Shown one piece after another: positions 32,761 through 51,882 of a stretch of DNA of 64,000 nt. A model generated the notes under the pieces. That model had not been told where the DNA came from, did not search any database, and was given only the letters and a program-made list of their open reading frames with translations. Position numbers and translations under genes: made by a program. Position 1 is the stretch's first letter. Every line of letters starts with the position of its first letter. The stretch is from Tateyamaria sp. syn59 (GTDB taxonomy: Bacteria; Pseudomonadota; Alphaproteobacteria; Rhodobacterales; Rhodobacteraceae): assembly GCF_007995245.1 (NCBI RefSeq), contig NZ_VCBA01000007.1, forward strand, positions 124,001-188,000, in the 5' to 3' direction.

Positions 32761-33747
32761 TCAGTCAGAAGAAACGGCTTGGGCGTTTGACTTCGCGATA
32801 AGGTCCACGCCCATCTGGTGAAACAGGTCCATGTAGTCGAGCATGACCCAGTTTTCGGCAATCTGCCCGTTTGCGCATCGGTAGAAATCCATCACCCGCA
32901 GCGTGAGGTCTTTGCCCGTAGGTTCCACACCCAGGTAAGGCCCTTGATGCGTCATCGTCATCGACGGCCAGCCCGAGATGGCGGCGTAGTTGCCTTGTCC
33001 AATCCTAGCATAGTGATTGCCCCCCTTGCGGTCGGGAAACGCGGCGAGGAAGGGCGCACGGTGATCTTTCACAAACCCCGCCCAGCGGTGGTTCGACCCG
33101 ATGCCGCCGGGCCCGTACCACAGCATGTCATCGGCCCAGTATCCGCCCTCTCCGGTCTGACCCTTGGAGGTGCCGGTTTCGGGATCGTAGATATGCAGAT
33201 CGCCCAACATCGCTTCAATCAGGTCGAGGCTGGCCGTACCGTCGCCCGCAGGCAGGATCCCGTCATGGGTCGCAGGCCCGGGAAACAGCATTTCGGTGCC
33301 GAGCAATCCGCCAAACGGATCGCGCCCCGCCTGCCGCATCAGGTCCGGTAGGTCGAGGATGATCCGCGCCTCGATGATCTGGCCATTCTCGACCCGGTAA
33401 AACTCGCCCGACCGCAGAAAGGCGAGGCGATTCGACGGCGCAATGTTCCACAAAGGCGCAGCAAACGTGCCCGCATAGTGCGTGAATGCGGCAATCCACT
33501 GACCGCCGACCTCGCGCCTGTTGGCCCCCGCGATGAAAATTTCATCGCGCCGCCGGGCATGCGGCAGCGCAGCACGCAAAGGGGCGTATACTTCGGCCCA
33601 GGCATCGCCCGGCACATTCGCGGGATGCGAGAAATAAAAGGCGCAATCGGCCGAAAAACAGGTCTCGAAGGCCTGCCGCGCTGCAGCATCATCATCTGCC
33701 CAAAGCGCGTGCAATGTCGCGCGCAAAGCAGGAATATCGGAGGTCAT
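32761..33747 (-). CDS. Tandem NTF2/SnoaL-like protein (paralogue 1)
   Basis: 328 residues made of two NTF2/SnoaL-like domains (about 10-150 and 180-320). The second contains the pattern DMLWYGPGGIGSN, FPDRKGG, GWPSMTMTHQGPYLGVEPTGKDLTLRVMDFYR, ENWVMLDYMDLFHQMGVDLI shared with three other genes in this cluster. SnoaL-type folds act as small-molecule cyclases, isomerases or binding proteins. Here the substrate is unknown. It is divergent from the ABC transporter operon and shares the 20-bp palindrome in between, suggesting common regulation. I put the start at ATG 33747; a longer frame would overlap the operator. Confidence 0.7.
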   Translation of the reverse strand: MTSDIPALRATLHALWADDDAAARQAFETCFSADCAFYFSHPANVPGDAWAEVYAPLRAALPHARRRDEIFIAGANRREVGGQWIAAFTHYAGTFAAPLWNIAPSNRLAFLRSGEFYRVENGQIIEARIILDLPDLMRQAGRDPFGGLLGTEMLFPGPATHDGILPAGDGTASLDLIEAMLGDLHIYDPETGTSKGQTGEGGYWADDMLWYGPGGIGSNHRWAGFVKDHRAPFLAAFPDRKGGNHYARIGQGNYAAISGWPSMTMTHQGPYLGVEPTGKDLTLRVMDFYRCANGQIAENWVMLDYMDLFHQMGVDLIAKSNAQAVSSD

Positions 33748-33766
33748 GGTGGCTGTCCAAAGATGG

Positions 33767-33786
33767 TTTTGCACACGTGTGCAAAA
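33767..33786. promoter_or_regulatory. LacI-type operator between SnoaL-like gene and ABC transporter
   Basis: TTTTGCACACGTGTGCAAAA is a perfect 20-bp palindrome with a central CG, typical of LacI-family operators. It lies 20 bp upstream of the divergent SnoaL-like start and 66 bp before the ATPase start. The LacI-family gene at 44794-45813 in the same cluster is the obvious candidate ligand. Confidence 0.7.
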
Positions 33787-33851
33787 AACAGTTGCCAAGT
33801 CAAAGCCCGGATGTCTAGCCTTATTCATCAACCTATGGGTCGGGGGTCCAC

Positions 33852-34898
33852 ATGGCAGAAATCCAACTGCGCAACATCAACAAACGGTGGGGCACGTTCG
33901 TGGGCGTCGACAATTTCGACCTGACGATCGCGGATGAGGAATTCCTGGTGCTGCTCGGCCCCTCGGGGTGTGGCAAGACCACGACGATGCGCATGATCGC
34001 GGGGCTTGAGGATGCGACTGAAGGCGATATCATGATCGACGGCAAGCGCGTCAATGATCTGGACCCAAAGGACCGCGACGTGGCGATGGTGTTCCAGTCC
34101 TACGGCCTCTACCCGCACCTGAATGTCTACGAAAACATCCGCTTCCCGCTGAAGGTCCGTAAGGTGGATCCCGCCACCCATGACGACCGCGTGCGCCGCG
34201 CCTCGGCCATGGTGGAGCTCGACGATTTCCTGCACCGAAAGCCCGCCGAATTGTCCGGCGGCCAGCGCCAGCGCGTGGCGCTTGCCCGCGCCATCGTGCG
34301 CGAACCCAACGTGTTCCTGATGGACGAGCCGCTGTCGAACCTCGACGCCAAGCTGCGCGTCTCGACCCGCGCCCAGATCAAGAACCTCAGCCACGAGTTG
34401 AAGGTCACGACCGTCTACGTGACCCATGACCAGATCGAGGCGATGACGCTCGCCGACCGCGTGGTGGTGATGAAGCAGGGCAAGGTGCAGCAGGTGGGCA
34501 CGCCGACGGAAATCTACGACCGGCCCGCCAACACATTCGTCGCCAGCTTCATCGGCTCGCCTGCCATGAACCTGATGGAAGGGACGATGGCGGGCGGCAC
34601 CTTCACCGGCGACAACGTCTCGATCAGCGGCCTCACCGCCCCCGACGGCCCTGCCACGCTGGGCTTCCGCGCCGAAGATGCCGCGTTGGCCGAAGCAGAC
34701 GGCCAGATCACCGCCCCCATCTACACCATCGAGCTTTTGGGCGACGCCACCATGCTCACCGTCCGCGCGGGCGGGCAGCTTGTGTCGATCAAGGCGCACA
34801 AGGAGTTCAGGGCCGAGATCGGCGATACCGTGTCCTTCTCGGTCCCGGCAGAGATCTGCCACGCATTCGATTCCTCTTCCGGCGAACGTCTGGCCTGA
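33852..34898 (+). CDS. ABC transporter ATP-binding protein (sugar-type, UgpC/MalK-like)
   Basis: 348 residues. Walker A GPSGCGKTTTMRMIAG near residue 36, signature LSGGQRQRVALARA, Walker B VFLMDEPLSNLDAK, followed by the MalK-like C-terminal regulatory (TOBE/OB) domain (GFRAEDAALAEADGQITAPIYTIELLGDATMLTVRAG). It powers uptake by the two permeases encoded at 37.8-40 kb. It is the first gene of the plus-strand operon behind the LacI-type palindrome. Carbohydrate, polyol or glycerol-phosphate-like ligands are typical; which one is unknown. Confidence 0.88.
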   Translation: MAEIQLRNINKRWGTFVGVDNFDLTIADEEFLVLLGPSGCGKTTTMRMIAGLEDATEGDIMIDGKRVNDLDPKDRDVAMVFQSYGLYPHLNVYENIRFPLKVRKVDPATHDDRVRRASAMVELDDFLHRKPAELSGGQRQRVALARAIVREPNVFLMDEPLSNLDAKLRVSTRAQIKNLSHELKVTTVYVTHDQIEAMTLADRVVVMKQGKVQQVGTPTEIYDRPANTFVASFIGSPAMNLMEGTMAGGTFTGDNVSISGLTAPDGPATLGFRAEDAALAEADGQITAPIYTIELLGDATMLTVRAGGQLVSIKAHKEFRAEIGDTVSFSVPAEICHAFDSSSGERLA

Positions 34899-34941
34899 GG
34901 AACCCGGCTGTGCGGGGGGCACCCCGTACGGCCCAACACCG

Positions 34942-34995: not shown

Positions 34996-36216
34996 ATGTA
35001 TCTGAAGAAACTGGCACTTGCGGGCGCCGTCTCGCTTTTGGGCAGCACGGCCTTTGCCGCGTGTTCCTACCAAAACGAGGTGCCGTTGAAGTCGCTGACC
35101 GCAGGCTTTGAAGCCTGGAAGGCCGTCACCGACGCCATGGCCGAGTGCGGCAATTTCCAGGCCGAGCTGGACCAGGAATTCCGCACCAAGCAGCCCGCCG
35201 CGTTCGAGGCGAACCCGTCGCTCTACCACATTGGCGGCGTGTCGAACGGCACCATCACACCTCTGCTGAACGCGGGCACAATCCGCCCGCTGGATGATCT
35301 GGTCGAGAAATACGGCCAGAACCTGTCGCCCAACCAGTTGATCCGCGTGGACGGTCAGATCATGGCCGTCGCCATGATGGTGAACACCCAGCACCTGATG
35401 TACCGCAGCGACATCCTCGCCGATCTGGGCATCGAAACGCCCAGCACATGGGACGAGGTGTTCGCCGCCGCCGAGAAGATCGAAGAGGCGGGCGTCGTTG
35501 ACCACGCCATCGGCGCGACGATGAAGTCCGGTTGGAACCTCGCCCAGGAATTCGTGAACATGTATCCCGGCTTTGGTGGTGCGTTCTTCAACGCCGACAA
35601 CACCACCGCCGTGAATTCCGAGGCGGGGATGAAGGCGCTCGACACCATGAAGCGCACGCTGGAGTTCACCGACCCGGAGGTTCTGGTCAGCGACTCGACC
35701 TATGTCCAGCAGCAGTTCCAGCAGGGCAAGATCGCCATGGCGAACCTGTGGTCCAGCCGCGCCGGTGCCATGAATGACGAAAACGAAAGCACCGTTGTGG
35801 GCAAGGTCTCGATGGCTGCTGCCCCCATGGCGATGGACGGCGGCGCGCCCGCCACCACGCTCTGGTGGGACGGTATCGTGATCGCAGCCAACATCACAGA
35901 TGAGGAAGCAGACGCCGCTTTCCGTCTGGCGATGGAAGGCATGGATGCCGACATGGTGCAAAGCGCAAATGAGGCCGCCATCTGGCTGGTGCAGGGCTAT
36001 GAGCCCGGCCCGCTGGCCGAAGGTGCCATCGCGACCGCAACCGCCAACCCGGCGCCGCCCGCGTACCCGTCGACCACACAGATGGGTCTGCTGCACACGG
36101 CGCTGGGCAATGAACTGCCTGCCTTCCTGACCGGTGAGCGCGGGGCAGAGGCGACGCTGGTCGCCATCGAAGAAGCCTACACCACGTCGGCCAAAGAGGC
36201 CGGTGTGCTCGAATAA
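34996..36216 (+). CDS. ABC transporter substrate-binding protein, family 1
   Basis: 406 residues with a Sec signal peptide (MYLKKLALAGAVSLLGSTAFA, cleavage near residue 21). The mature chain has the family 1 sugar-binding layout: MAVAMMVNTQHLMYRSDILADLGIETPSTWDEVFAAAEKI is the typical central strand-helix segment, and the C-terminal lobe ends AIEEAYTTSAKEAGVLE. It captures the transporter's ligand in the periplasm. The start codon lies inside TTTGCACATGTA, which resembles half of the LacI-type operator. AGGGAG precedes it. Confidence 0.85.
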   Translation: MYLKKLALAGAVSLLGSTAFAACSYQNEVPLKSLTAGFEAWKAVTDAMAECGNFQAELDQEFRTKQPAAFEANPSLYHIGGVSNGTITPLLNAGTIRPLDDLVEKYGQNLSPNQLIRVDGQIMAVAMMVNTQHLMYRSDILADLGIETPSTWDEVFAAAEKIEEAGVVDHAIGATMKSGWNLAQEFVNMYPGFGGAFFNADNTTAVNSEAGMKALDTMKRTLEFTDPEVLVSDSTYVQQQFQQGKIAMANLWSSRAGAMNDENESTVVGKVSMAAAPMAMDGGAPATTLWWDGIVIAANITDEEADAAFRLAMEGMDADMVQSANEAAIWLVQGYEPGPLAEGAIATATANPAPPAYPSTTQMGLLHTALGNELPAFLTGERGAEATLVAIEEAYTTSAKEAGVLE

Positions 36217-36271: not shown

Positions 36272-37798
36272 ATGACACGAGACTACGATCATATCGTTGT
36301 GGGCGGTGGCTCTGCTGGATGCGCGGTGGCCGCGCGTCTTGCCGAACGACCGGGCGCAAAGGTGTGCGTGGTCGAGGCGGGGCCTTCGGATCGGGATATC
36401 CGGGTCCGAGTGCCCTTTGCTCTCGTGAACCTTCTGGCCTCCGACCGTCGCAACTGGAAGCGGCAAACGGTACCCATGGCATCGGCAGGCAACCGACAAG
36501 TGTCCGTCCCGCGCGGCAAGATGCTGGGCGGGTCGGGCTCGATCAATTCCATGGTCTGGTTCCGGGGCACCCGCGCTGACTTCGACGTCTGGGGCCTGCC
36601 CGGATGGGACAGCGCGACAGTCTGGCGGGCCTTCGACGTGGTCGAGGCGCGGATGACTCCCGAGCGCTTGCCGCACCCGCACCCCCTGTCCGAAGCCTTT
36701 GGCCGCGTCTTTCCCGCCAACGACCCCCACGCCCCGCCCACACCGGAACGGCAAAGCGCGGGGGTGTTCCACACAAACATGAGGGGCGGCGCCCGCTGGT
36801 CGGCGGCTGATGGATTCTTGCGCCCCTCTGGAGCCGATGTCGTAACGGATGCCGAGGTGGACCATGTCACCTTCGATAACACCCGCGCTACGGGCGTCGT
36901 TCTGCGCGACGGTCGCACCCTGACGGCGCGCGCGGGCGTTGTCCTGTCGGCAGGCAGCATCGAAAGCCCAATGATCCTCATGCGCTCCGGCATCGGTCCG
37001 GGGGCTGACCTAAAAGCCGCAGGCATCGACGTGCGCATCGACGCGCCGGGCGTGGGCGCAAACCTACACGACCACCCCGGTTTCGGCCTGCATTTTAAAG
37101 GGCAGGGCTCGGGTTACGGCCTCACGCTCGGTCAGCTTCCCGCTTGGGCGCTGTCGCCCTTCCAATGGCTCCTGACACGTTCCGGGCGGCTTAGTTCCAA
37201 CACCGTCGAGGCGGGCGCATTCTACAGCGTCACGGACAGCGACGTGCCCGACATCCAAACCCATTTCCTGCCCTTCCTAATGGGCTGGCAAGGCCGCGCG
37301 ATCATCTGGGGATCGGGTTACTTCGCCGATGTCTGCCTGTGCCAGCCTCGCTCACGTGGGCGCTTGCGGATCGGCAAGGACCGCTTCCAACCGCTCATCG
37401 ACCTCAACCTCTTCGGCGACGACTGGGACCTCGACATGATGGTGCGTGGCGTCGACCGCCTACGCGCGCTGCTTGATGCGGCCCCCCTCGAACACCGCCG
37501 CGCGCCCGAAGGCTTTCCCGGCACCCATATCACCGGCGACGCGCTCCGCGAAGTGATCCGAACGCGCGCAGGCACCGCCTACCACCCCGTCGGCACGGTC
37601 GCTCTCGGTGGCCCGCTCGATGCGCAGGGCGCGGTCAAAGGCGTGGACAACCTCTGGGTCGCGGACGCCTCGGTCATGCCGCGCATCACATCCGCCAACA
37701 CCAACGCCCCATCCATGATGATCGGCTGGCAGATCGGGGGCCACGTCGCGGCCACCGCAGAAAGGACCCCTTCCATGTCCTACCGCATAGCTACTTGA
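36272..37798 (+). CDS. GMC family FAD-dependent oxidoreductase
   Basis: 508 residues. N-terminal FAD-binding motif YDHIVVGGGSAGCAVAARLAE (residues 5-25), GGSGSINSMVWFRG, VVLSAGSIESPMILMRSGIG, and C-terminal HPVGTVALGGPLDAQGAVKGVDNLWVADASVMP, which includes the catalytic His region. GMC enzymes oxidise alcohols (choline, glucose, alditols) to aldehydes or ketones with a flavin. Placed between binding-protein and permease genes, it probably acts on the imported compound. No signal peptide is visible, so it is cytosolic. TTGGGGGACAG precedes ATG 36272. Confidence 0.85.
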   Translation: MTRDYDHIVVGGGSAGCAVAARLAERPGAKVCVVEAGPSDRDIRVRVPFALVNLLASDRRNWKRQTVPMASAGNRQVSVPRGKMLGGSGSINSMVWFRGTRADFDVWGLPGWDSATVWRAFDVVEARMTPERLPHPHPLSEAFGRVFPANDPHAPPTPERQSAGVFHTNMRGGARWSAADGFLRPSGADVVTDAEVDHVTFDNTRATGVVLRDGRTLTARAGVVLSAGSIESPMILMRSGIGPGADLKAAGIDVRIDAPGVGANLHDHPGFGLHFKGQGSGYGLTLGQLPAWALSPFQWLLTRSGRLSSNTVEAGAFYSVTDSDVPDIQTHFLPFLMGWQGRAIIWGSGYFADVCLCQPRSRGRLRIGKDRFQPLIDLNLFGDDWDLDMMVRGVDRLRALLDAAPLEHRRAPEGFPGTHITGDALREVIRTRAGTAYHPVGTVALGGPLDAQGAVKGVDNLWVADASVMPRITSANTNAPSMMIGWQIGGHVAATAERTPSMSYRIAT

Positions 37799-37808: not shown

Positions 37809-38837
37809 ATGAAGTTCAAAACCTTCTTCTGGTTCGTGGCCCCCTCGGTCTTCATGATGCTCTTGTTCATCGCGGCCCCGCTGATCTCGGTCTTCATCCA
37901 GTCCTTCCAGATCACCCAGCCCGTGATGCAGCAGATCGAGGTCGAGACCTGCACCCCCGGCTTCCTCACCCAGACCTGCGTGACAGAAACCAAAACGGTC
38001 CCCGTCATCAACGAAGAGACGGGGCGCACCGAAACCACCACCGCCTGGGTCGGCTTCCAAAGCTACCAGAACGTGCTGCAAATGGACAAATTCTGGTCCG
38101 CCATCGGGTCTGGCAACTGGGGCGAGATCCTGCAGATCGACTTCTGGAAAGCGCTGCGCTTCACCCTGATGTTCACGCTCGTGACGCTGCCTTTGGTCAT
38201 CGGCGTGGGTCTCATGATCGCGCTGGCTGTGAACAACGCCGCCAAGTCCCTGCGCGGCCCGGTGATCTTCGTGTCGCTGCTGCCCTTCATCATCACGCCC
38301 GTCATCGGCTCGCTGTCGATCTATTGGCTCTTCGTCGGCGATGGCATTCTGACCGCCACCCTCGAACGCTGGACAGGCCAGGACATTGCCATGTTCGCGC
38401 AGGCGTGGACGATTGAGCTGCTGATGTACTTCTACCGCGTTTGGCACGTGGCCCCCTTCGCCTTCGTCATCTTCTATGCAGGACTGCAAACGGTGAACAT
38501 GGATACGCTGGAGTCGGCCATCATCGACGGCGCCAGCCGCTTCGAACGGCTGCGCTACGTGATCGTGCCACACCTCATGCCGCTGATTATCTTCATCGCG
38601 CTCATCCACCTGATGGACTGCTACCGTGTCTTCGACGAGATCATCGGCTTCCGCAGCCAGGCGCATGTCATCTCGCTGCAATGGCTGACCTTCGATTTCC
38701 TCACACCGGATGACGCAGGCAACCGGGCGATCAGCCGGGCCGCCGCCAGCGCCATGCTGACCATGGTGGGCATTGTGATCCTGCTGATCCTGCCGCTGCG
38801 CCGCACCTGGCGCGACCACAAAGGGGGGGCACATTAA
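37809..38837 (+). CDS. ABC transporter permease (MalF-like)
   Basis: 342 residues, six predicted helices, with an inserted periplasmic loop of about 50 residues after the first helix (residues 40-80, including CTPGFLTQTC with two Cys). The cytoplasmic EAA loop is IIDGASRFERLRYVIVPHLMPLI near residue 240. It forms one half of the membrane channel. It ends with TAATG, sharing one base with the next permease start, so the two are translationally coupled. Confidence 0.85.
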   Translation: MKFKTFFWFVAPSVFMMLLFIAAPLISVFIQSFQITQPVMQQIEVETCTPGFLTQTCVTETKTVPVINEETGRTETTTAWVGFQSYQNVLQMDKFWSAIGSGNWGEILQIDFWKALRFTLMFTLVTLPLVIGVGLMIALAVNNAAKSLRGPVIFVSLLPFIITPVIGSLSIYWLFVGDGILTATLERWTGQDIAMFAQAWTIELLMYFYRVWHVAPFAFVIFYAGLQTVNMDTLESAIIDGASRFERLRYVIVPHLMPLIIFIALIHLMDCYRVFDEIIGFRSQAHVISLQWLTFDFLTPDDAGNRAISRAAASAMLTMVGIVILLILPLRRTWRDHKGGAH

Positions 38838-39988
38838 TGTCCAAAGCCACCGCACAGCCGCTGTCGCTCAAGCTTGCATCCGGCGCCTTCCTCGCCTTCT
38901 GGTGCCTGATCGCAGCCTTTCCCATTGCCTGGATCGCGGTGATGAGCGTGAAGTCCCCGCGCGATGCCTTCGATGCCAGCGCGTGGAACGTGATCACCGG
39001 ACCCGCCACGCGGGCGGCGGGCAACGGGCTCAGCTTCCTCGACATTCTGCTGGGCCTGATCGTGCTGTACTTCGCGATCCGCTGGGCCTTCACAAAGCTG
39101 CCCCGGTTGGTCGAGCAGTTCTCGCCCCCCGGCTTCATCGTGCTGGGCTGGCTTGTGGGCGCAGCCGTCTACGGTCTGCTGTTCGTATTGATCTTCTTCG
39201 GCGCCCTGCCGGTCATCTTCGGCGCACTCAACAGCATCGCGGGGCCGCTGGGCACGCCGATCCTCGGCCTGACGACGGAACACTACGTGGCGGTCTGGGG
39301 CGAAAACCAGTTCTACCGCAACTTCATGAACTCGATGATCGTGACGGCTGGCGTCGTCACCGTCTCTCTCACCGTCGGTACGCTCGCGGGCTATGGCCTT
39401 GCGCGCTCCGGCTCGAACCTCGCCTTCTGGCTTCTGATCATCGCGCTTGTCTTCCGCGCGCTGCCGCACTCGGTGCTCGTGGCAGGCTACCTGCCGTGGT
39501 TCATCAACTCCGCCGAAATCCTGCGCCCGATCCTGGGTGACCTGGCGCCCACGCTCTACGGCCAACCACTAGCGATCATCGCGGTGCTTGTGGCGATCAA
39601 CCAGCCCTTCACCATCTGGATGCTGCGATCCTTCTTCCAGAACATCCCGGCCGAGCTGGACGAGGCCGCGCGGGTCGACGGTTGTTCCCACTTCCAGGCC
39701 TTCCGCCGCGTGATCATGCCGGTCATGTGGCCGGGGGTGATCACCACGGGCCTCTTCAGCTTCCTGCTGGGCTACAACGACTTTCTCGTCACGGCCCTGC
39801 TGCTGGATGCGCAGAACCAGACGATGGTCCCGGCCATCGCGGGCTACTTCAATCGCGAAACCACCACGACCGACCAGGTCGAGGCGGTCGCCGCCGCCGT
39901 GTCCATCACGGCACCCTTGTTCCTTCTGGTTATGGTGTTCCAACGCCAGATCGTGTCGGGCCTGACAGCGGGGGCGGTGAAGGGCTGA
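38837..39988 (+). CDS. ABC transporter permease (MalG-like) with extra transmembrane insertion
   Basis: 383 residues, about 100 longer than typical MalG-type permeases. The usual core is present from residue 150, with the EAA loop LDEAARVDGCSHFQAFRRVIMP near residue 275. Residues about 55-145 are an inserted segment with two to three additional hydrophobic helices (FLDILLGLIVLYFAIRW; FIVLGWLVGAAVYGLLFVLIF). The insertion follows the first helix. It probably adds a structural domain to the channel. It ends the import operon; hairpins follow at 40011-40107. Confidence 0.82.
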   Translation: MSKATAQPLSLKLASGAFLAFWCLIAAFPIAWIAVMSVKSPRDAFDASAWNVITGPATRAAGNGLSFLDILLGLIVLYFAIRWAFTKLPRLVEQFSPPGFIVLGWLVGAAVYGLLFVLIFFGALPVIFGALNSIAGPLGTPILGLTTEHYVAVWGENQFYRNFMNSMIVTAGVVTVSLTVGTLAGYGLARSGSNLAFWLLIIALVFRALPHSVLVAGYLPWFINSAEILRPILGDLAPTLYGQPLAIIAVLVAINQPFTIWMLRSFFQNIPAELDEAARVDGCSHFQAFRRVIMPVMWPGVITTGLFSFLLGYNDFLVTALLLDAQNQTMVPAIAGYFNRETTTTDQVEAVAAAVSITAPLFLLVMVFQRQIVSGLTAGAVKG

Positions 39989-40010
39989 TGAGCAGTTCGT
40001 CGCGCACCTG

Positions 40011-40045: not shown

Positions 40046-40052
40046 CACGGGA

Positions 40053-40107: not shown

Positions 40108-40117
40108 GGATGATCCA

Positions 40118-44039: not shown

Positions 44040-44794
44040 GCTTGCCGAAGACACCTTCGTTTGATCTGTCGGGCAAGCGGGCGTTGGTGACGGGTGCGTC
44101 GTCCGGGATCGGCTTGGGTTGTGCCGTCGCGCTTGCGGAGGCGGGCGCGCATGTGGTCTGTGCGGCGCGGCGGGCTGATGCTTTGGCGGACGTGGTTGGG
44201 GCTATGACTGAACAGGGGTGGAGCGCGGAGGCGCTGCAGTTTGATCAGTCGGACATGGGCGCAGTCGAGGCCGCTTTTGATCAGCCATACGATATCGTTT
44301 TGAACTCGGCTGGTCTGGCGCGGCATGGACCTTCGATGGAGACACAGCCGGAGGATTTCGACGCGGTTGTCGGCATCAATTTGAAGGGCGCATACTTCCT
44401 GTCCACCGCCGCAGCCCGTGCGCTGACTGAGGCGGGCAAGGGTGGTTCGATCATCCATATCTCATCGCAGATGGGTCATGTGGGCGGCATCGACCGGGCT
44501 GTCTATTGTGCCACGAAACACGGGGTTGAGGGCATGGTGAAGGCCATGGCCATCGAGTGGGGTAAGGCGAATATCCGCATCAACACGGTGTGCCCGACCT
44601 TCGTGCGCACGGCCTTTACCGAGAAGTCGTTTGAAGATCCGGAGCGCTATGCCTGGATCATGGACAAGATCAAGCTGCCCCGCGTGGCGGAGGTCGAGGA
44701 CATCATGGGGGCGGTGCTGTTTCTGGCCTCGGATGCGTCAGCTATGGTCACGGGCACCTCGATGCTGATCGACGGCGGGTGGACGGCAGACTGA
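44036..44794 (+). CDS. SDR family NAD(P)-dependent dehydrogenase
   Basis: 252 residues, Rossmann fold. Cofactor loop ALVTGASSGIGLGCAVALAEAGAHVV, NSAG (NNAG-equivalent), catalytic Ser in IIHISSQMGH and YxxxK in VYCATKHGVEG, and the C-terminal substrate lid DASAMVTGTSMLIDGGWTAD. It oxidises or reduces an alcohol/ketone, probably an intermediate of the pathway. In sulfopropanediol operons an SDR accompanies HpsN, which fits this arrangement. The 3' end overlaps the LacI gene start by one base (TGATG). Confidence 0.85.
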   Translation: MSLPKTPSFDLSGKRALVTGASSGIGLGCAVALAEAGAHVVCAARRADALADVVGAMTEQGWSAEALQFDQSDMGAVEAAFDQPYDIVLNSAGLARHGPSMETQPEDFDAVVGINLKGAYFLSTAAARALTEAGKGGSIIHISSQMGHVGGIDRAVYCATKHGVEGMVKAMAIEWGKANIRINTVCPTFVRTAFTEKSFEDPERYAWIMDKIKLPRVAEVEDIMGAVLFLASDASAMVTGTSMLIDGGWTAD

Positions 44795-45813
44795 TGCCCG
44801 ACAAGGTGACAGCACTCGATGTGGCGGAGCGGGCGGGTGTGTCCCGCTCGGCCGTCAGTCGTGTCTTCACCCCCGGTGCGTCGGTGTCGAAGCGCACCGC
44901 CGATAAGGTGCGGCAGGCGGCGGATGATCTGGGGTATCGACCCAATGTGCTGGCGCGGTCGCTTATCACTGGACGGAGCCGTATTGTCGGGCTGCTTGTC
45001 GCCTATCTGGAGAACCACTTTTACCCCGAGGCCATCGAACGGTTGAGCCGAAAGCTGCAGGAGCAGGGCTATCACGTGCTGGTCTTTATCTCGTCGAACT
45101 CAGCGGACGATGCGGATGAGGTGATGCGGGAGCTGTTGGATTATCAGGTGGATGGGATCATCGCCGCCAGCGTCGGCATGTCGAACGACCTGACCCAGCG
45201 CTGCGAGGCGGCGGGCATTCCCATTGTGCTGTTCAACCGGGCGCAGGATGATGACCGGCTGTCTTCGGTCACGTCCGACAACTACCACGGCGGGCGCAAG
45301 CTGGCGGAGTTTCTGGTGGCCGGTGGGCACCAGCGCATTGCGCATGTGGCGGGATGGGAGGGTGCCTCGACCCAGCGGGACCGCGAGGCGGGCTTTGTCG
45401 CCGGGCTGGAGGCGGCGGGGCGCCGCCTGTTTGCACGTGGGGTCAGTGACTTTGACTTTGACACGGCCAAGGATGTGGCGCGCGAGATGTTTGCGGGGTC
45501 GGAGCGGCCCGATGCGGTGTTTTGTGCCAATGATCACATGGCCTTTGCCGTGATGGATGTGCTGCGGTTTGAGCTGGGCCTGAACGTGCCGGGCGATGTG
45601 TCGGTCGTGGGCTACGACGATGTGACCCTCGCCGCCTGGCCCAGCTATGACCTGACCACTGTGCGCCAGCCTGCGGGGCAGATGGCGGACGCCACGGTTG
45701 ATATTCTGATGGACCGGCTTGCCGATCCTGACACCAAACCCCGCCGCGTCGCGCTGGATGGACCACTCATCCTGCGCGGGTCGGCCCGCATACCCAAAGG
45801 ATGGACCTCATGA
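44794..45813 (+). CDS. LacI family transcriptional regulator
   Basis: 339 residues. N-terminal helix-turn-helix and hinge: VTALDVAERAGVSRSAVSRVFTPGASVSKRTADKVRQAADDLGYRPNVLARSL (residues 5-57). The periplasmic-binding-protein-like effector domain includes GIIAASVG, VLFNRAQDD, CANDHMAFAVMDVL and the C-terminal VVGYDDVTLAAWPSYDLTTVRQP. It probably represses the SnoaL/ABC cluster by binding the 20-bp palindrome at 33767-33786 and releases it on ligand binding. Unusually it lies within the operon it would control, with overlaps on both sides. Confidence 0.9.
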   Translation: MPDKVTALDVAERAGVSRSAVSRVFTPGASVSKRTADKVRQAADDLGYRPNVLARSLITGRSRIVGLLVAYLENHFYPEAIERLSRKLQEQGYHVLVFISSNSADDADEVMRELLDYQVDGIIAASVGMSNDLTQRCEAAGIPIVLFNRAQDDDRLSSVTSDNYHGGRKLAEFLVAGGHQRIAHVAGWEGASTQRDREAGFVAGLEAAGRRLFARGVSDFDFDTAKDVAREMFAGSERPDAVFCANDHMAFAVMDVLRFELGLNVPGDVSVVGYDDVTLAAWPSYDLTTVRQPAGQMADATVDILMDRLADPDTKPRRVALDGPLILRGSARIPKGWTS

Positions 45814-46778
45814 AGGGTTTTTCGAACCGGTGGAAGGACTTCCCCGACTATATCATCGGCATCACCAAGGAGATCTGGGAAGACCGCGGCATCGCGACCC
45901 TGCATCACTATTACAGCCCGGACATCGTGGTGCGGTCGCCTGCGTCGGTTGTCATTGGGAACGAAAAGGTGATTGGCGCCACCATGGCGACACTGGCCGA
46001 GTTTCCCGACCGGACGCTGCTGGGCGAGGATGTGATCTGGAGCGGGACGCCGGAGGAGGGGATGTTGTCCTCGCACCGGATCTTGTCGACGGCCACGCAT
46101 ATGGCGGATGGGGTGTATGGGCGTGCGTCGGGCAAGACCTTGCAGTACCGGATTATTGCCGACTGTCATGCCATCAATGATCAGATCAACGACGAGTGGT
46201 TGATCCGCGACCAGACGGCCATCGTGAACCAGATCGGGTGGGAGGCGAAGGCTTACGCTGCGGACCTGATCGAGCGCGAGGGGGGGATGGAGAATGCGGT
46301 GCGCCCGTTGTCGCCTGCGACGGATCAGCCGGGGCCGTACAAGGGGCGGGGCAATGACAATGAGTGGGGTCAGAAATATGCCGACATTCTGACGCGGATT
46401 ATGGGGGCCGATATGGCTGTTATTCCGGGCGAATATGACCGGGCGGTGCAGTCGGAGTATCCCGGTGGTTTGACCGGACATGGCACGGGGCCGGTAGATC
46501 GTTTCTGGATGGGACTGCGGGCGTCGTTTCCGGATGCAACGTTTACCATCGACCACCAGATTGGGCGGGATGATGAGATGATGCCGCCGCGGGCCGCGAT
46601 CCGGTGGAGCCTGCATGGCAAGCATGATGGCTGGGGGTATTTCGGCGCGCCGACCGGGGCTGAGGTGTATGTTCTGGGCATTTCTCATGCAGAGTTTGGG
46701 CCTTGGGGGCTACGCCGGGAATATGCGCTGTTTGATGAGACGGCGATCTGGAAGCAGATCTTGTTGCAGACCGGCTGA
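45810..46778 (+). CDS. Tandem NTF2/SnoaL-like protein (paralogue 5)
   Basis: 322 residues. Two SnoaL-like domains: first around residues 12-145 (HHYYSPDIVVRSPASVVIGNEKVIGAT...), second around 170-315 (QSEYPGGLTGHGTGPVDRFWMGLRASFPDATFTIDHQIGRDDEMMPPRAAIRWSLHGKHDGWGYFGAPTGAEVYVLGISHAEFG). It is more diverged from the other paralogues and lacks their ENWV motif. It overlaps the LacI stop (ATGA). A dispersed repeat follows its stop codon. Confidence 0.6.
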   Translation: MKGFSNRWKDFPDYIIGITKEIWEDRGIATLHHYYSPDIVVRSPASVVIGNEKVIGATMATLAEFPDRTLLGEDVIWSGTPEEGMLSSHRILSTATHMADGVYGRASGKTLQYRIIADCHAINDQINDEWLIRDQTAIVNQIGWEAKAYAADLIEREGGMENAVRPLSPATDQPGPYKGRGNDNEWGQKYADILTRIMGADMAVIPGEYDRAVQSEYPGGLTGHGTGPVDRFWMGLRASFPDATFTIDHQIGRDDEMMPPRAAIRWSLHGKHDGWGYFGAPTGAEVYVLGISHAEFGPWGLRREYALFDETAIWKQILLQTG

Positions 46779-46820: not shown

Positions 46821-47435
46821 GTGCGCCGCTATGACGAGGTGATGTTTACCGAGGCCGTGAAGGCACTGCAGGAGGCGGATGGGTCTGCCGATATGTATGC
46901 GCGCAGCTATGGGGCGCGGACCCATGCGCTGAACGCGGATGAGGTGGCGTTCATCACATCGCGTACGTCGTTCTACATGGGCACAGTGTCCGAGACCGGG
47001 TGGCCCTATATCCAGCATCGGGGCGGGCCTGCGGGTTTTCTGAAGGTGCTGGATGATCACACGCTCGGCTTTGCGGACTATCGCGGGAACAAGCAGCACA
47101 TTTCCGAGGGCAACCTGGCCGGTGACGACCGGGTGTCGTTGTTTCTGATGGATTACCCGCGCAAGGCCCGGATGAAGCTGCAGGGGCGGGCGACGTTTGC
47201 GAAGGCTGACGATGAGCCGGCGCTGGCCGAGCAACTGGCGGTGGAGGGGCAGGGTCGGGTCGAGCGGGTGGTGACGATCCGGATTGAGGCCTTTGACTGG
47301 AACTGTCCGCAGTTCATCACGCCGCGTTTTGATGCAGGCGAGATTGCGCAGCTGGTGGCGCCGGAGATGGACAAGCTGAATGCGCGGATTGCCGAGTTGG
47401 AAGCGGAGAATGCTGCGCTGAAGGGGCAGGGATGA
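46821..47435 (+). CDS. Pyridoxamine 5'-phosphate oxidase-like flavin-binding protein
   Basis: 204 residues. Split-barrel flavoprotein fold: SRTSFYMGTVSETGWPYIQHRGGPAGFLKVLDDHTLGFADYRGNKQHISEGNL. The FMN site is plausible, but the classic PNPOx active site for pyridoxine is not shown. Members reduce or oxidise small organic compounds. GTG start at 46821 with AGGTCAGGG. The C-terminal coiled helix (MDKLNARIAELEAENAALKG) suggests oligomerisation. ATGA overlap with the next gene. Confidence 0.75.
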   Translation: MRRYDEVMFTEAVKALQEADGSADMYARSYGARTHALNADEVAFITSRTSFYMGTVSETGWPYIQHRGGPAGFLKVLDDHTLGFADYRGNKQHISEGNLAGDDRVSLFLMDYPRKARMKLQGRATFAKADDEPALAEQLAVEGQGRVERVVTIRIEAFDWNCPQFITPRFDAGEIAQLVAPEMDKLNARIAELEAENAALKGQG

Positions 47436-47968
47436 CCGACATCTACCGCGCTGCCGAACGTCTGATGGGGATGCAGGACGCCGATTGGCGGCGTCATGCG
47501 AGCCCGTGGAGCGTTTGGACGCGGTTTTCTTGCCTGCCGCTGATGGTGCTGGCGATTTATGCCCGGCAGTGGATCGGGTGGTGGGCGTTGCCGCTCTTCC
47601 TGCTGGCCGGGGCGTGGACATGGGCGAACCCGCGCGTCTTTCCTCCGCCCGCCGATTTTGGCAGTTGGGCGTCGCGCGGCACCTTGGGCGAGCGCATCTT
47701 TCTGGCGCGAAACCGGTATGACGTTGCGGCGCATCATATCCGGGTGGCGCATGTGCTGACGGCGCTGTCGGCCATCGGTGTGCTGCCTCTGATCTACGGC
47801 CTGATCGTGCTGAACCCATGGGCGACCGTTCTGGGCCTGGTCGCCACCATCTTGCCAAAAGTCTGGTTCGTGGACCGCATGGTCTGGATCCACGCCAACA
47901 TCACCAATTCCAAACCGGGCGATCCATTGCCCGATCCAACCCTCCCACATGAAAGGACCCCCACATGA
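47432..47968 (+). CDS. Four-helix membrane protein (DUF6653-like)
   Basis: 178 residues with about four transmembrane segments: SPWSVWTRFSCLPLMVLAIYARQW, WWALPLFLLAGAWTWANP, then VLTALSAIGVLPLIYGLIVL and ATVLGLVATILPKVWF. Cytosolic N-terminal helix, and a conserved SPWSVWTR start typical of a small uncharacterised family. It overlaps both neighbours by four bases (ATGA), so it is made with the flavin-binding and cupin proteins. Function unknown. Confidence 0.65.
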   Translation: MTDIYRAAERLMGMQDADWRRHASPWSVWTRFSCLPLMVLAIYARQWIGWWALPLFLLAGAWTWANPRVFPPPADFGSWASRGTLGERIFLARNRYDVAAHHIRVAHVLTALSAIGVLPLIYGLIVLNPWATVLGLVATILPKVWFVDRMVWIHANITNSKPGDPLPDPTLPHERTPT

Positions 47969-48930
47969 CCCCCGCCGAGATGGAGCCGCGCATTGTGCGC
48001 TACGGCGATCTGATGCCTTGCAAAACTGCGTTCATCGACGCGCACACGCCCGGCTCGGACCAGAAGGAGAACTTTACCATCATCGGCGGTGGGGTGTCGG
48101 AGTCGCCTGATCAGCATGTTCACATCTCGATCCCGCATGGGTTTAACATCGGGGCCGCCGGGCAGCCGCCAAAATGCCGGAACTCGCTGCACAGCCACCG
48201 CACGGCCGAGGTGTTCTTTGTCCTGTCGGGCCGCTGGCGGTTTTTCTGGGGGCGCTGGGGAAAGGCCGGGGAGGTCGTGCTGGAAGAAGGCGACATTATC
48301 AACATTCCGACCGGCATCTTTCGCGGGTTCGAGAATATCGGCACCGACTACGGTATGATCATGGCGATCCTTGGCGGTGACGATGCAGGCGGCGGCGTGA
48401 TCTGGGCGCCGCAGGTGATCGAGGAAGCGGGCGCGCATGGCCTGGTTCTGGGCGAGAATGGCAGCCTTTATGACAGCAAGAAGGGTGAGAGCCTGCCTGA
48501 TGGGGTTGGGCCGATGCCGTTGCTGAGTGCGGAGGAGTTGACGGAGTTCCCCGAGATGTCGCCGATGCAGGTCGTTGGCATGGGCGTGCGCCGGTATTGG
48601 GACATGGTGTGTCTGGCCAAGGACGCGCCCTGCAAGGTGATCGGCGAGACGGGGATTATTCGGGACAAGCCGGGGTTTGAAGTGGATCTGGTCACCCGCT
48701 CCAGTGCGTCCGATGACATGCACGCGCATGACAAGCCCTCGGTTCTGATGCCGGTGAAGGGGCATTGGAAGGTCACGTGGGAGGGGGATAGCACGACGCT
48801 GGCGCCCGGCGATACGATGAGTGTGCCGGAGAACTTGGCCCACAGCGCCGTGCCGTCGATGACGGGGGAGGCAGCACTCTATCACGTGGTGGGCACGGAT
48901 GATCCGGCGGGGCCGACGTGGACAGGGTGA
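47965..48930 (+). CDS. Bicupin protein
   Basis: 321 residues, two cupin domains. The first has HSHRTAEVFFVLSGRWRFFWGRWGKAGEVVLEEGDIINIPTGIFRGFEN; the second has DDMHAHDKPSVLMPVKGHWKVTWEGDSTTLAPGDTMSVPENLAHSAV. Histidine positions in both would bind a metal (HSH...H and HAH...H). Bicupins include dioxygenases, isomerases and storage-related proteins. It could act on an intermediate with ring or diol character. Overlaps with both neighbours indicate one operon. Confidence 0.72.
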   Translation: MTPAEMEPRIVRYGDLMPCKTAFIDAHTPGSDQKENFTIIGGGVSESPDQHVHISIPHGFNIGAAGQPPKCRNSLHSHRTAEVFFVLSGRWRFFWGRWGKAGEVVLEEGDIINIPTGIFRGFENIGTDYGMIMAILGGDDAGGGVIWAPQVIEEAGAHGLVLGENGSLYDSKKGESLPDGVGPMPLLSAEELTEFPEMSPMQVVGMGVRRYWDMVCLAKDAPCKVIGETGIIRDKPGFEVDLVTRSSASDDMHAHDKPSVLMPVKGHWKVTWEGDSTTLAPGDTMSVPENLAHSAVPSMTGEAALYHVVGTDDPAGPTWTG

Positions 48931-49529
48931 CGGCTGATCCGGAGGACATCCAGGGCGTCTATGACCGTCAGGCGGCTGTTTATGACGCCCGGCGGTCTCG
49001 CGCGCTGTTCGAAGCGCGGTGGCTGGCGCGGTTTGCTGCCGCTTTGCCCGATGGGGCGCGGGTGCTGGATCTGGGCTGCGGTACGGGCGATCCGATTGCG
49101 CGGTGGTTCATGGCTGAGGGGTTTGAGGTCACGGGTGTCGACTTTTCGGAGCCCATGCTGGCGATTGCGCGGGAGCGGTGGCCCGATGGGGACTGGCGGC
49201 AGGCGGACATGCGGACGTTGGATCTGGGCGAGACCTTTGACGGTATCATCGCCTGGAACAGCTTTTTTCACCTTACGGCAGAGGCGCAGCGGGACTGTAT
49301 CGCGCGTATGGCCGCGCATCTGGAACCCGGTGGCAGCCTGATGCTGACCGTTGGGCCAAGCGCAGGCGAGGCAGAGGGCACCGTAGGCGACGAAGCGGTC
49401 TACCACGCCTCGCTCTCGCCCGCGGGCTATGCCACATGCCTTGAAGAGAATGGCTTGCGCCTGACCGGGTTTCTGGCCGAAGACCCCGATGCCAACCAGC
49501 ATACCGTGCTGATGGCGCGCAAAGACTGA
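48927..49529 (+). CDS. Class I SAM-dependent methyltransferase
   Basis: 200 residues. SAM-binding motif VLDLGCGTGDPIARWF near residue 45, then EVTGVDFSEPMLAIARERW and the motif II/III stretch TFDGIIAWNSFFHL. It methylates an unidentified acceptor. I use GTG 48927 because it gives the 4-base overlap used throughout this operon; GTG 48918 is an alternative. With the following MetE-like gene it suggests methyl-group transfer in this pathway. Confidence 0.8.
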   Translation: MTADPEDIQGVYDRQAAVYDARRSRALFEARWLARFAAALPDGARVLDLGCGTGDPIARWFMAEGFEVTGVDFSEPMLAIARERWPDGDWRQADMRTLDLGETFDGIIAWNSFFHLTAEAQRDCIARMAAHLEPGGSLMLTVGPSAGEAEGTVGDEAVYHASLSPAGYATCLEENGLRLTGFLAEDPDANQHTVLMARKD

Positions 49530-49540: not shown

Positions 49541-50665
49541 ATGCCTGTCACAACCACCCATGTCGGGTCTTTGCCCCGGACGCAGAAGGTCGTCGATTTC
49601 ATCTTTGCCCGCGAGCGGGAGGAGCCGTTTGAGCAGGCGGGTTTCGATGCGGCGATGGCGGAGGCGGTGGATGACACAGTGGCCAAGCAGGTGGCGGCGG
49701 GCGTCGACATCGTCAGCGATGGTGAGACGTCGAAAATCAGCTATGCGACCTATGTGAAGGACCGCTATACCGGGTTTTCCGGTGACAGCCCGCGCAATGC
49801 ACCTGCGGATCTGAAGCAGTTTCCCAGCTTTCTGAAGCGCTTGGCCGAGGGTGGCGGGACCCCGCAATATGCGCGACCGATGTGCACGGGTGAGGTGACG
49901 TCCAAGGGGCAGGGCGAGTTGGAGAAAGATATTGCGAACCTCAAGGCGGCGATGGCCAAGCATGGGGTTGAGCGTGGCTTTATGAATGCGGCTTCTCCGG
50001 GCGTGATTTCGCTGTTTTTGCAGAACGATTTTTATCCGACGCGCGATGCGTACCTCGCCGCCCTCGCCGATGCGATGAAGGCGGAGTACGAGACGATTGT
50101 GGGCGCGGGGTTGGATTTGCAGCTGGATTGCCCGGATCTGGCTCTGTCGCGGCACATGTTGTTTAACGATCTGAGCGATGCGGAGTTTGTGAAGATTGCA
50201 GATGCGCATGTGGAGGCACTGAACCATGCGCTGGCGGATGTGCCTGCGGAAAAGGTGCGGGTGCATATCTGCTGGGGGAATTACGAGGGACCGCATGTGT
50301 GTGATGTGCCCATGGATACGGTCTTTCCCACGCTGATGGCGACCAAGGCGCGCTACGTGTTGTTCGAGACGTCGAACCCGCGTCATGCGCATGAGTGGAC
50401 CGTGTTTCGGGACCGCAAGGCGGAGATCCCGGACGACAAGGTGCTGGTGCCCGGTGTGGTCGATACCACCACGAACTTTGTTGAGCATCCGGAGGTGGTG
50501 CGGCAGCGGATCGAGCGGTTTGCGGAGATTGTGAGCGCGGATCGTGTGATCGCGGGGAGTGACTGCGGGTTTGGCACTTTTGCGGGTTTCGGCTCGGTTG
50601 ATCCTGAGATCGCCTATGCCAAGCTGAATGCTCTGTCCGAGGGTGCCGCGATGGTGAAGGGCTGA
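49541..50665 (+). CDS. MetE-like cobalamin-independent methyltransferase (C-terminal half form)
   Basis: 374 residues, the catalytic domain of MetE without the N-terminal half. The zinc ligands of methionine synthase are conserved: His242 and Cys244 (HICWGN), Glu276 (LFETSNP) and Cys342 (GSDCGFG). Other core pieces are VVDTTTNFVEHPEVV and GLDLQLDCPDLALSRHMLF. Short MetE homologues of this type use different methyl donors or acceptors, or degrade methylated compounds. The start at 49541 has AAGGAGA. Together with the methyltransferase this argues for thiol-methyl chemistry in the cluster. Confidence 0.8.
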   Translation: MPVTTTHVGSLPRTQKVVDFIFAREREEPFEQAGFDAAMAEAVDDTVAKQVAAGVDIVSDGETSKISYATYVKDRYTGFSGDSPRNAPADLKQFPSFLKRLAEGGGTPQYARPMCTGEVTSKGQGELEKDIANLKAAMAKHGVERGFMNAASPGVISLFLQNDFYPTRDAYLAALADAMKAEYETIVGAGLDLQLDCPDLALSRHMLFNDLSDAEFVKIADAHVEALNHALADVPAEKVRVHICWGNYEGPHVCDVPMDTVFPTLMATKARYVLFETSNPRHAHEWTVFRDRKAEIPDDKVLVPGVVDTTTNFVEHPEVVRQRIERFAEIVSADRVIAGSDCGFGTFAGFGSVDPEIAYAKLNALSEGAAMVKG

Positions 50666-50668
50666 GCC

Positions 50669-51361
50669 ATGGAGGACGCGCTGCATGATCTGCTGAGGTC
50701 GGTGGATACGCCCACGGTCTGCAACGCCATTGAGGTCGCGCAGGGCAAGCGCGGGTTCAATGCGTTTACCCGTGGCACGATGCTGGCGTCGGACCCGGAT
50801 GGGGTGATGGTCGGCTATGCCCGCACCGCCCGGATCCGGGCGCTGACCCCGCCCACGGAGCCGCCCGAGGTGATCAAGGCGCGGCGGATGGGGTACTACA
50901 AGTACATGTCAGAAGGGCCGCGCCCGGCGGTCTGCGTGGTGCAGGATCTGGATGTGCCAAATGCGATTGGCGCCTATTGGGGTGAGGTGAACACCAATAT
51001 TCACAAGGCGTTTGGGCTGACGGGCACGTTGACGGATGGGGTGATGCGTGACCTCGGTGATCTGGCGGAGGGATATCCGGTGGTCGCAGGCTCGATCGGG
51101 CCGAGCCATGGGTTTGTGCATCTGGTGGATTATGACCAGCCGGTGCGCATTCATGGACTCGACATCCGGCCCGGTGATCTGGTGCATGCGGACCGGCATG
51201 GGGCGGTGGTGATCCCGGAGGATGTGGTGGCCGGGCTAGCGGACGCCATCGCGACGCTGATGCGGTCCGAGAAGATCGTGTTTGATGCGGTCAAGGGCAA
51301 GCGGATCGGCTTTGAGGAGTTTGAAGCGGTCTGGGCCGCGTTCGAAGCGGCGCGGACGTGA
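50669..51361 (+). CDS. RraA-family / HMG-aldolase-like protein
   Basis: 230 residues of the RraA/dimethylmenaquinone-methyltransferase-like fold. The motif GLTGTLTDGVMRDLGDLAEGYPVVAG has the Arg-Asp pair that binds metal and oxaloacetate/pyruvate in aldolases such as 4-hydroxy-4-methyl-2-oxoglutarate aldolase. The Arg and Asp residues are retained. A pathway aldolase or decarboxylase is likelier than RNase E regulator because it sits in a catabolic operon. It follows MetE-like by three bases and overlaps the next gene by GTGA. Confidence 0.75.
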   Translation: MEDALHDLLRSVDTPTVCNAIEVAQGKRGFNAFTRGTMLASDPDGVMVGYARTARIRALTPPTEPPEVIKARRMGYYKYMSEGPRPAVCVVQDLDVPNAIGAYWGEVNTNIHKAFGLTGTLTDGVMRDLGDLAEGYPVVAGSIGPSHGFVHLVDYDQPVRIHGLDIRPGDLVHADRHGAVVIPEDVVAGLADAIATLMRSEKIVFDAVKGKRIGFEEFEAVWAAFEAART

Positions 51362-51882
51362 TCCGCTGGGCAATCGCCTTTGCCCTGCTATGTTCGCCGG
51401 TCATGGCGGATGATTTGGAACTGAGCCCCGAGTGGGAATATGTCGCTGACACGGTGATGGGTGGCGTGTCTTCGGGGCAGGCCAATGTTGAGGTCGTTGA
51501 GGGGCGGGAGGCGGTTCGGCTGACCGGCACGGTGTCGCTGGAGAACAACGGTGGGTTTGTGCAGATCGCTTTTGATTTGGCGGATGGTGCAGTGTTTGAC
51601 GCCAGTGGGTTTACCGGCGTGGCGCTGGATGTGCTTGGGAATGGCGAAAGCTATGATCTGCGCCTGCGCACCGATGCGCTGACCCGGCCTTGGCAGTCCT
51701 TTCGGTCCGAGTTTTTGGCACCCGATGAATGGACAACGATCCGCATCCCCTTCACTGAGTTTGAAGCGCACCGGACCGAAGCATCCTTTGACCCCGCCCG
51801 ATTGCGCCGCGTTGGTATCCTTGCCATCGGGCGCGAGATGCAGGCGGATGTTGCGGTGTCCGGCGTGCGGTTCTATCGCTAG
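51358..51882 (+). CDS. CIA30-domain secreted protein
   Basis: 174 residues with a short signal peptide (MIRWAIAFALLCSPVMA). The rest, WEYVADTVMGGVSSGQANVEVVEG and EFLAPDEWTTIRIPFTEFEAHR...RVGILAIGREMQADVAVSGVRFYR, matches the CIA30-type beta sandwich also seen in carbohydrate-binding folds. Members outside mitochondria are poorly known. GTG start overlaps RraA-like gene (GTGA); the stop CTAG shares bases with the convergent enolase-superfamily gene. Confidence 0.75.
   Translation: MIRWAIAFALLCSPVMADDLELSPEWEYVADTVMGGVSSGQANVEVVEGREAVRLTGTVSLENNGGFVQIAFDLADGAVFDASGFTGVALDVLGNGESYDLRLRTDALTRPWQSFRSEFLAPDEWTTIRIPFTEFEAHRTEASFDPARLRRVGILAIGREMQADVAVSGVRFYR

Follow-up and report, generated by a model that had tools for sequence, protein, structure and literature searches.

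What is the function of a gene cluster in which five SnoaL-like proteins are encoded together with a sugar-type importer, a LacI-family regulator, two dehydrogenases, a bicupin and an aldolase-like protein? The question is raised by a 64,000-nucleotide stretch of the Tateyamaria sp. syn59 genome (contig NZ_VCBA01000007.1; hereafter the window), in which we modelled 21 genes, A to U, at positions 32761-53111 (the whole genome is 4.57 Mb). We find that the cluster is a real and widespread unit. The reading we favor, to which we give about an even chance of being correct, is LacI-controlled uptake and catabolism of a small, polyhydroxylated, probably anionic compound by two modules, with an oxidative cleavage and a pyruvate-type aldolase.

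Gene content of the locus

Domains were called from Pfam and/or NCBIfam profile scans, with every gene scanned in at least one of the two. The genes and one regulatory element are:

32761..33747, minus strand: A, divergent tandem SnoaL-like protein (PF07366, 87.7 bits)
33767..33786, no strand: perfect 20-base palindrome TTTTGCACACGTGTGCAAAA, predicted LacI operator, between A and B
33852..34898, plus strand: B, UgpC-type ATP-binding cassette (ABC) ATPase (NF008653, 451.6 bits, cut-off 432)
34996..36216, plus strand: C, sugar-type solute-binding protein (PF01547, 81.3 bits)
36272..37798, plus strand: D, GMC oxidoreductase, accessory (PF00732/PF05199)
37809..38837, plus strand: E, ABC permease 1 (PF00528)
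38837..39988, plus strand: F, ABC permease 2 (PF00528)
40166..40648, plus strand: G, single-domain SnoaL-like protein (PF07366, 66.2 bits)
40658..41986, plus strand: H, HisD-superfamily dehydrogenase, nearest solved relative HpsN, without the HpsN sulfonate motif (PF00815)
41989..42993, plus strand: I, tandem SnoaL-like protein, accessory (PF07366)
42990..44039, plus strand: J, tandem SnoaL-like protein, core (PF07366, 92 bits)
44036..44794, plus strand: K, short-chain dehydrogenase/reductase (SDR) family dehydrogenase (PF13561)
44794..45813, plus strand: L, LacI-family regulator (PF00356, 47.2 bits; PF13377, 115.6 bits)
45801..46778, plus strand: M, tandem SnoaL-like protein, core, divergent from A, I and J (PF07366)
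46842..47435, plus strand: N, PNPOx-like flavin mononucleotide (FMN) protein, accessory (PF01243)
47432..47968, plus strand: O, DUF6653 protein, accessory (PF20358)
47965..48930, plus strand: P, bicupin, dioxygenase-like fold (PF07883)
48918..49529, plus strand: Q, S-adenosylmethionine (SAM) methyltransferase, accessory (PF13649)
49541..50665, plus strand: R, short MetE-like protein, predicted zinc methyl-transfer protein (PF01717)
50669..51361, plus strand: S, protein like RraA and 4-hydroxy-4-methyl-2-oxoglutarate/4-carboxy-4-hydroxy-2-oxoadipate (HMG/CHA) aldolase (PF03737, 64.7 bits, gathering cut-off 24.5)
51358..51882, plus strand: T, CIA30-domain protein, accessory (PF08547)
51879..53111, minus strand: U, enolase-superfamily sugar-acid dehydratase-like gene, inverted, possible neighbour (PF13378)

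An earlier note on this DNA had listed five SnoaL-type proteins, four of them with tandem domains, alongside a sugar-type importer and GMC, HpsN-like, SDR, LacI, bicupin, methyltransferase, MetE-like and RraA-like proteins. The profile scans bear this inventory out, with PF07366 above its gathering score in 5/5 SnoaL-type proteins, and length and domain comparison agree that A, I, J and M are tandem; N, O, T, U and the palindrome are additions. The importer B/C/E/F has the makeup of the CUT1 type (a UgpC/MalK-type ATPase, an SBP_bac_1 binding protein and two BPD_transp_1 permeases), and L carries both the DNA-binding and the ligand domain of LacI. The same note had nearly all downstream genes overlapping by four bases or less, and the genes are indeed tightly packed, but between G and T only 6 of the 13 junctions are overlaps of 1-4 bases; another 2 are overlaps of 13 bases, both hinging on the choice of start codon, and 5 are gaps of 2-63 bases.

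Conservation of the cluster as one unit

Homologues of J at E <= 1e-20 occur in 43 of the 148 relatives searched. We compared 40 stretches around J hits and the best 80 M-related loci of at least 576 relatives from the GTDB species collection, and the same gene order recurs in many genera across both sets. The two genome collections behind these loci overlap (L066 and L076 are apparently one strain, and L106 and L107 share a contig name). Core genes were counted in the 62 of the 80 M-related loci that had at least 20,900 bases, each gene being labelled after the window gene that it matched best in tblastn (E <= 1e-10). M, C, E, F and J are each found in 62/62 loci, B and L in 60/62, H in 59/62, K, P and G in 58/62, R in 57/62 and S in 51/62. 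A is labelled in 24/62, an undercount because J is often the better match for the gene in that position. Much lower counts were obtained for Q (18/62), U (13/62), N (12/62), T (9/62), O (6/62), I (5/62) and D (3/62), and we therefore consider D, I, N, O, Q and T accessory. The GMC oxidoreductase D is thus ruled out as a core enzyme; among the 40 J stretches it was found in 5, in one of them at 35% identity.

A test that is independent of linkage gives the same picture. Across 149 genomes sampled from the order, which by its named relatives is Rhodobacterales, searched with E-value limits that differed among the three proteins (1e-40, 1e-80 and 1e-100), R is present in 69, M in 75 and P in 74; R and M are shared in 69 genomes, P and M in 73, and R and P in 68. 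R was never seen without M (69/69), M occurs without P in 2 genomes and P without M in 1. Kinship among the genomes inflates the significance of the Fisher p-values for this co-occurrence. It is difficult to account for such near-identical genome sets of R, M and P if the three proteins do not act together. The locus of G452 speaks against this, as M, L, J and P are not accompanied there by H, K, R, X or S. The earlier note had named separation of the genes in relatives as evidence against a single pathway, and P does lie far from M in several genomes (G347, G322, G537, G576, G586 and G623), yet both are present in each of these and presence and absence still match almost perfectly. Taken together, these results support its proposal of one uptake-plus-catabolic pathway with a LacI regulator. 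M-type loci were also seen in two metagenome bins labelled Desulfosarcinaceae and Desulfofustis (L119 and L150), perhaps through transfer or a binning error.

A predicted operator

The divergent genes A and B are separated by a region with a perfect palindrome of 20 bases, TTTTGCACACGTGTGCAAAA (33767-33786), which has a central CG. No second match within three mismatches is found in the 64-kb window, and the genome holds one exact copy of the 18-base core plus one site with two mismatches on contig C1. Of 76 usable loci, 65 have a degenerate form, TTTGCAYRCGYRTGCAAA, with at most 2 mismatches in the 300 bases upstream of B (24 of these match exactly), and the other 11 lack it. Over all loci there are 110 such sites, as compared to 0-2 for palindromes with permuted half-sites (n=20). 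The palindrome has the form of a LacI-family operator, and we predict that L binds it and acts as a repressor. A 12-base inverted repeat, TTTCATTTGTGC...GCACAAATGAAA, was spotted by eye in the gap between F and G (39989-40165), upstream of G.

Variant operons and a proposed two-module organization

Variant operons in other bacteria show which parts of the cluster go together, and for this reason we read it as two modules: the SnoaL-like proteins would act upstream with the importer, while P, a hydrolase and an aldolase would form a lower pathway that is joined either to H and K or to OtnK and OtnC. L102 and L130 have A, B, C, E, F, G, J, L and M, and the stretch examined contains none of H, P, R and S. 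Conversely, Klebsiella michiganensis has LacI, HisD, SDR, a major facilitator superfamily (MFS) transporter, hydrolase, aldolase and cupin genes with no SnoaL annotated. In Thioclava, Vibrio pelagius and Salinivibrio, otnK, an OtnC-type aldolase gene and otnI or a TIM-barrel gene stand with cupin, aldolase/citrate lyase and hydrolase genes and no annotated HisD or SDR gene; the importer is a sugar ABC system in Thioclava and a tripartite ATP-independent periplasmic (TRAP) transporter in the other two, and the arrangement in G528 is the same. Ensifer NER9 combines otnK, aldolase, hydrolase and cupin genes with one SnoaL gene, and in Vibrio pelagius another part of the same plasmid encodes an importer together with SnoaL-like proteins. 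An extra amidase and a second HisD are found in Pantoea, Labrenzia THAF35 and Novosphingobium, and an extra amidase in Sinorhizobium medicae.

We counted neighbours within 6 kb at 91 places where P was found with 4.5 kb visible on both sides (L247-L251 are outside this and the whole-locus counts). The presence of H and K agrees in 87 of the 91, and OtnK is found in 3 of the 11 P places without H and in 0 of the 80 with H. The aldolase near P is RraA alone at 65 places, HpcH alone at 8, both at 0 and neither at 18, where the HpcH counts are lower bounds since the L218 and L237 aldolases, recognized from Pfam or annotation, fell below the 35% threshold. A looser whole-locus count finds both aldolases in one locus (L224).

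The earlier note had the SnoaL-like proteins perform isomerisation or binding steps, which are candidate roles. Their grouping with the importer and LacI suggests early pathway steps for them. The structure model of J has two domains (pLDDT, the predicted local distance difference test score, is 83), and mean column identity of G is 84% over 18 sequences. With the NCBIfam SnoaL methyl-ester model, G reaches 39.8 bits as compared to a cut-off of 200, and A, I, J and M are not reported.

Two further observations concern genes near importers of this kind. In G347 a mannosylglycerate-hydrolase-like glycoside hydrolase (PF22422; L211:458-1753) lies between importer genes, near catabolic genes, and in Vibrio pelagius sarcosine oxidase genes and purU are close to the SnoaL and importer genes (L231:465-5707).

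The enzymes of the proposed lower module

Among solved structures, HpsN matches H at 397 bits, and HisD reaches 252.8 bits at most. According to PMC11382572, Glu318 and His319 of HpsN are catalytic and Gln248, His251, Asp352 and His411 bind zinc; all of these are retained in our alignment of H (chain numbering is one higher). The paper also reports that HpsN is inactive on histidinol and glycerol-1-phosphate, and that His126 in the motif G-R-Y-A/S-H recognises the sulfonate and marks dihydroxypropanesulfonate (DHPS) dehydrogenases. At this motif position 94 of 98 H homologues have GKFPM and 2 have GGYPM (2 were not read), six distant cluster HisD homologues have GKYPL, and second HisD copies have GRYPI. 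In view of this reported inactivity of HpsN on histidinol and glycerol-1-phosphate, we regard H as a third enzyme of the HisD type, which would oxidise a primary alcohol beside a hydroxyl. A DHPS or other sulfonate pathway with H as HpsN, a branch of the earlier proposal, has the bit scores in its favor but fails on the missing sulfonate-marking His, and no sulfolyase was reported for the 21 modelled genes in general Pfam and NCBIfam scans; we consider the loss of the motif to rule it out, leaving it next to no probability.

P has a bicupin fold resembling quercetinase and gentisate dioxygenase, with a dioxygenase as the best Foldseek match and oxalate decarboxylase close behind among the best 50 rows. 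Its invariant residues are H76-x-H78-x3-E82 and R120. Cupins usually bind their metal through HxHxxxE and a fourth ligand, a His; in P the HxHxxxE is invariant, and Arg120 stands where that His is usual. The best 50 rows of the Foldseek and VIA lists named no reaction.

R has a Meth_synt_2 domain in which H242-x-C244, E276 and C342 are invariant over 15 sequences, a pattern that we take to be the zinc ligands of MetE, and it reaches no NCBIfam cut-off of the methionine synthase models. In S, R127-D128 is invariant in 18 sequences and aligns with an Arg-Asp of the uncharacterised structure 3k4i. PMC5065237 describes a catalytic Arg followed by a metal-binding Asp in the RraA-type HMG/CHA aldolase. 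With the LigK equivalog model S scores 29.3 bits, as compared to a cut-off of 304.5.

In 36 of the 80 loci the cluster genes include an alpha/beta hydrolase, X, mostly between R and S. It is missing from the cluster in the window, and the homologue in this genome is on contig C1 (L244:9691-10401), with 57% identity to one cluster copy and 65% to X of G566. The genes that flank it have their counterparts next to pieces of the cluster in G566 and G322, and the site may be what remains of an older location of the cluster. We rejected the idea that R and X are alternatives, as the two show no association (R-/X- 10, R-/X+ 14, R+/X- 24 and R+/X+ 43 places). Four of the ten places with neither (L223, L224, L232 and L238) carry a more distant alpha/beta hydrolase, as judged by Pfam or the annotation of the record.

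Proposed pathway and substrate

In the pathway that we infer from these families and motifs, the compound would enter through B/C/E/F under the control of L, and the SnoaL-like proteins A, G, I, J and M would complete the upper module, probably stripping substituents from the imported molecule or isomerising it. In the lower module H and K would oxidise a -CH2OH group beside a hydroxylated carbon to the carboxylate, P would cleave a C-C bond of an enol or diketone using O2, and X would hydrolyse the cleavage product. S, of the RraA type (HpcH/HpaI in other bacteria), would then split the resulting 4-hydroxy-2-oxo acid into pyruvate and a C4 acid, and R would take over a methyl group.

Products of this kind would constrain the substrate. 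Beta-diketone dioxygenases cleave C-C bonds of enolized diketones with O2. Should P perform an oxidative C-C cleavage and the aldolase release pyruvate, the other half in the OtnK operons would be 3-oxo-tetronate. When pyruvate and 3-oxo-tetronate are joined and a ring is closed between their carboxyl carbons, the resulting C7 ring bears a 1,3-dione, a hydroxymethyl and a tertiary hydroxyl. This is the gadusol skeleton. Gadusol and the mycosporines are 5-hydroxy, 5-hydroxymethyl, 2-methoxy enones. We therefore consider a C7 cyclitol enone of the gadusol/mycosporine type the most likely substrate class. That the cluster is a pathway for mycosporine-like amino acids and gadusols themselves, sunscreens of algae, corals and fish eggs, is a tentative proposal that we think rather unlikely to hold as it stands.

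Under this proposal the SnoaL-like proteins would remove the amino substituents, H and K would turn the ring hydroxymethyl into a carboxylate, P would open the 2-methoxy-1,3-dione ring and R or X would take off the methyl. The 4-deoxygadusol route would run through 4-carboxy-4-hydroxy-2-oxoadipate to pyruvate and oxaloacetate, and a gadusol route without H and K would give pyruvate and 3-oxo-tetronate, the latter for OtnK. Operons that add an amidase and a second HisD would be suited to mycosporines with amino alcohols such as glutaminol. The gadusol/mycosporine idea, with the reactions assigned here, thus fits several operon variants at once. In the literature, gadusol-type compounds are described as vinylogous acids with a methylated C-2 hydroxyl, with desmethyl-4-deoxygadusol derived from sedoheptulose 7-phosphate (PMC4426668); a C7 hydroxymethyl group of a mycosporine is mentioned (PMC4665425); 4-carboxy-4-hydroxy-2-oxoadipate is a substrate of HMG/CHA aldolase (PMC5065237); and mycosporine-glutaminol is reported from terrestrial fungi and cyanobacteria (PMC3083659).

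Several points weigh against this scheme. The OtnK and amidase operons showed no R, OtnI is superfluous in the gadusol scheme, and K is without an obvious target in 4-deoxygadusol. In the fold search with P, oxalate decarboxylase ranks close behind the dioxygenase.

Alternative explanations

The cluster could instead be a sugar-acid or cyclitol pathway without any oxygenative cleavage, in which P is an isomerase or dehydratase, the SnoaL-like proteins are dehydratases or isomerases, H and K are sugar-acid oxidases and RraA or HpcH is a 2-keto-3-deoxy-acid aldolase. Cupins do act as isomerases or dehydratases in uronate and inositol pathways, and the CUT1 importer and the LacI regulator speak for such a pathway, as does the sugar-acid dehydratase-like U that adjoins the cluster in 13/62 loci; the HpcH homologues also match the GarL, RhmA and HpaI models, below their cut-offs. 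Against this, the fold of P is matched best by a dioxygenase, Pfam assigns P to Cupin_2 and not to KduI, and a methyl-transfer protein is not needed, yet R is in 57/62 loci. We also know of no HisD-type oxidation of a sugar. We think this alternative rather unlikely.

An ascorbate-type reductone as substrate has a smaller claim. P would cleave the enediol, the hydrolase would free a C4 acid and, in some operons, OtnK and OtnC would use that acid, which agrees with the presence of OtnK, OtnC and sometimes OtnI in operons with P, HpcH and the hydrolase and with the TRAP importer in two of them. However, no threonate dehydrogenase is annotated in the Otn operons, the pyruvate-type aldolase would be without a role, and H, R and the SnoaL-like proteins would be unaccounted for, making this a very improbable explanation. 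As SnoaL itself is a polyketide cyclase family, and a bicupin and a methyltransferase are present, a biosynthetic cluster was also considered. The scans of the 21 genes contain no polyketide synthase, while a binding protein and permeases are found in 62/62 loci, and LacI, an aldolase and dehydrogenases of the breakdown type are present; polyketide biosynthesis is ruled out on this gene context, and we place almost no weight on it.

Significance of the cluster

The core genes are found in about half of the sampled Rhodobacterales genomes, and the substrate should therefore be a common metabolite. In public records the proteins are named ester cyclase, nuclear transport factor 2 family protein or histidinol dehydrogenase, and with such generic names the pathway is hidden. 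The substrate could be found by a screen with the binding protein. Should it prove to be a gadusol or mycosporine, the cluster would offer a direct way to test how natural sunscreens are turned over.

Two side observations concern other genes of this genome. Genes resembling pcaB and pcaD of protocatechuate metabolism seem to adjoin the cluster at 54413-56527, as read from protein starts, and similar proteins are present in some related loci, e.g. L100 and L080. Another tandem SnoaL paralogue is on contig C2 (L032:9592-10659), apparently beside two-component regulator genes and not catabolic ones, again judged from protein starts; it has matches of ~34% identity in other genomes of the genus.

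Comparison with known systems

The earlier note knew of no described system with this combination of genes, and this holds among the open-access matches listed, which is weak evidence as subscription literature is outside that scope. Likewise, no description of a mycosporine-degrading gene cluster is found in the titles and abstract starts of those matches, again weak evidence. As far as these matches show, the cluster is an undescribed catabolic system built from known families.

The SnoaL and IdmH polyketide cyclases and the tandem epoxide hydrolases Lsd19 and MonB share the NTF2-like fold with the SnoaL-like proteins of the cluster, and Lsd19 and MonB share their tandem arrangement, but the cluster proteins stand in an importer context and have 13-26% identity to them among the best 15 rows. 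The quercetin- and gentisate-type bicupin dioxygenases have the bicupin fold and HxHxxxE in common with P, which differs by its 11-18% identity and by the Arg in place of the fourth ligand His. The core-MetE and short MetE-like proteins have the same Meth_synt_2 domain with the H-x-C, E and C pattern as R, while R reaches no MetE model cut-off.

At the level of pathways, DHPS catabolism in Cupriavidus and Roseobacteraceae likewise has a HisD-superfamily dehydrogenase (HpsN) gene next to an SDR gene, with catalytic and zinc-binding residues kept in both, whereas the cluster is missing the sulfonate-recognising His with its motif and has no reported sulfolyase. To our knowledge, SnoaL-like proteins, a bicupin, an aldolase and a MetE-like protein have no part in DHPS catabolism. 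The four-carbon acid-sugar pathway of OtnK, OtnC and OtnI overlaps with the proposed lower module in that OtnK and OtnC-type genes share an operon with cupin, hydrolase and HpcH genes in Thioclava, Vibrio, Salinivibrio, Ensifer NER9 and G528 (in Ensifer an OtnI-type gene is not annotated); the window cluster has no Otn genes and has H, K and S. Protocatechuate and gallate 4,5-cleavage, with its LigK/RraA family HMG/CHA aldolase, differs from the cluster in that the latter has a CUT1 importer and LacI and that S misses the LigK cut-off, but it follows the logic that we propose here, ring cleavage and then an RraA-type pyruvate aldolase.

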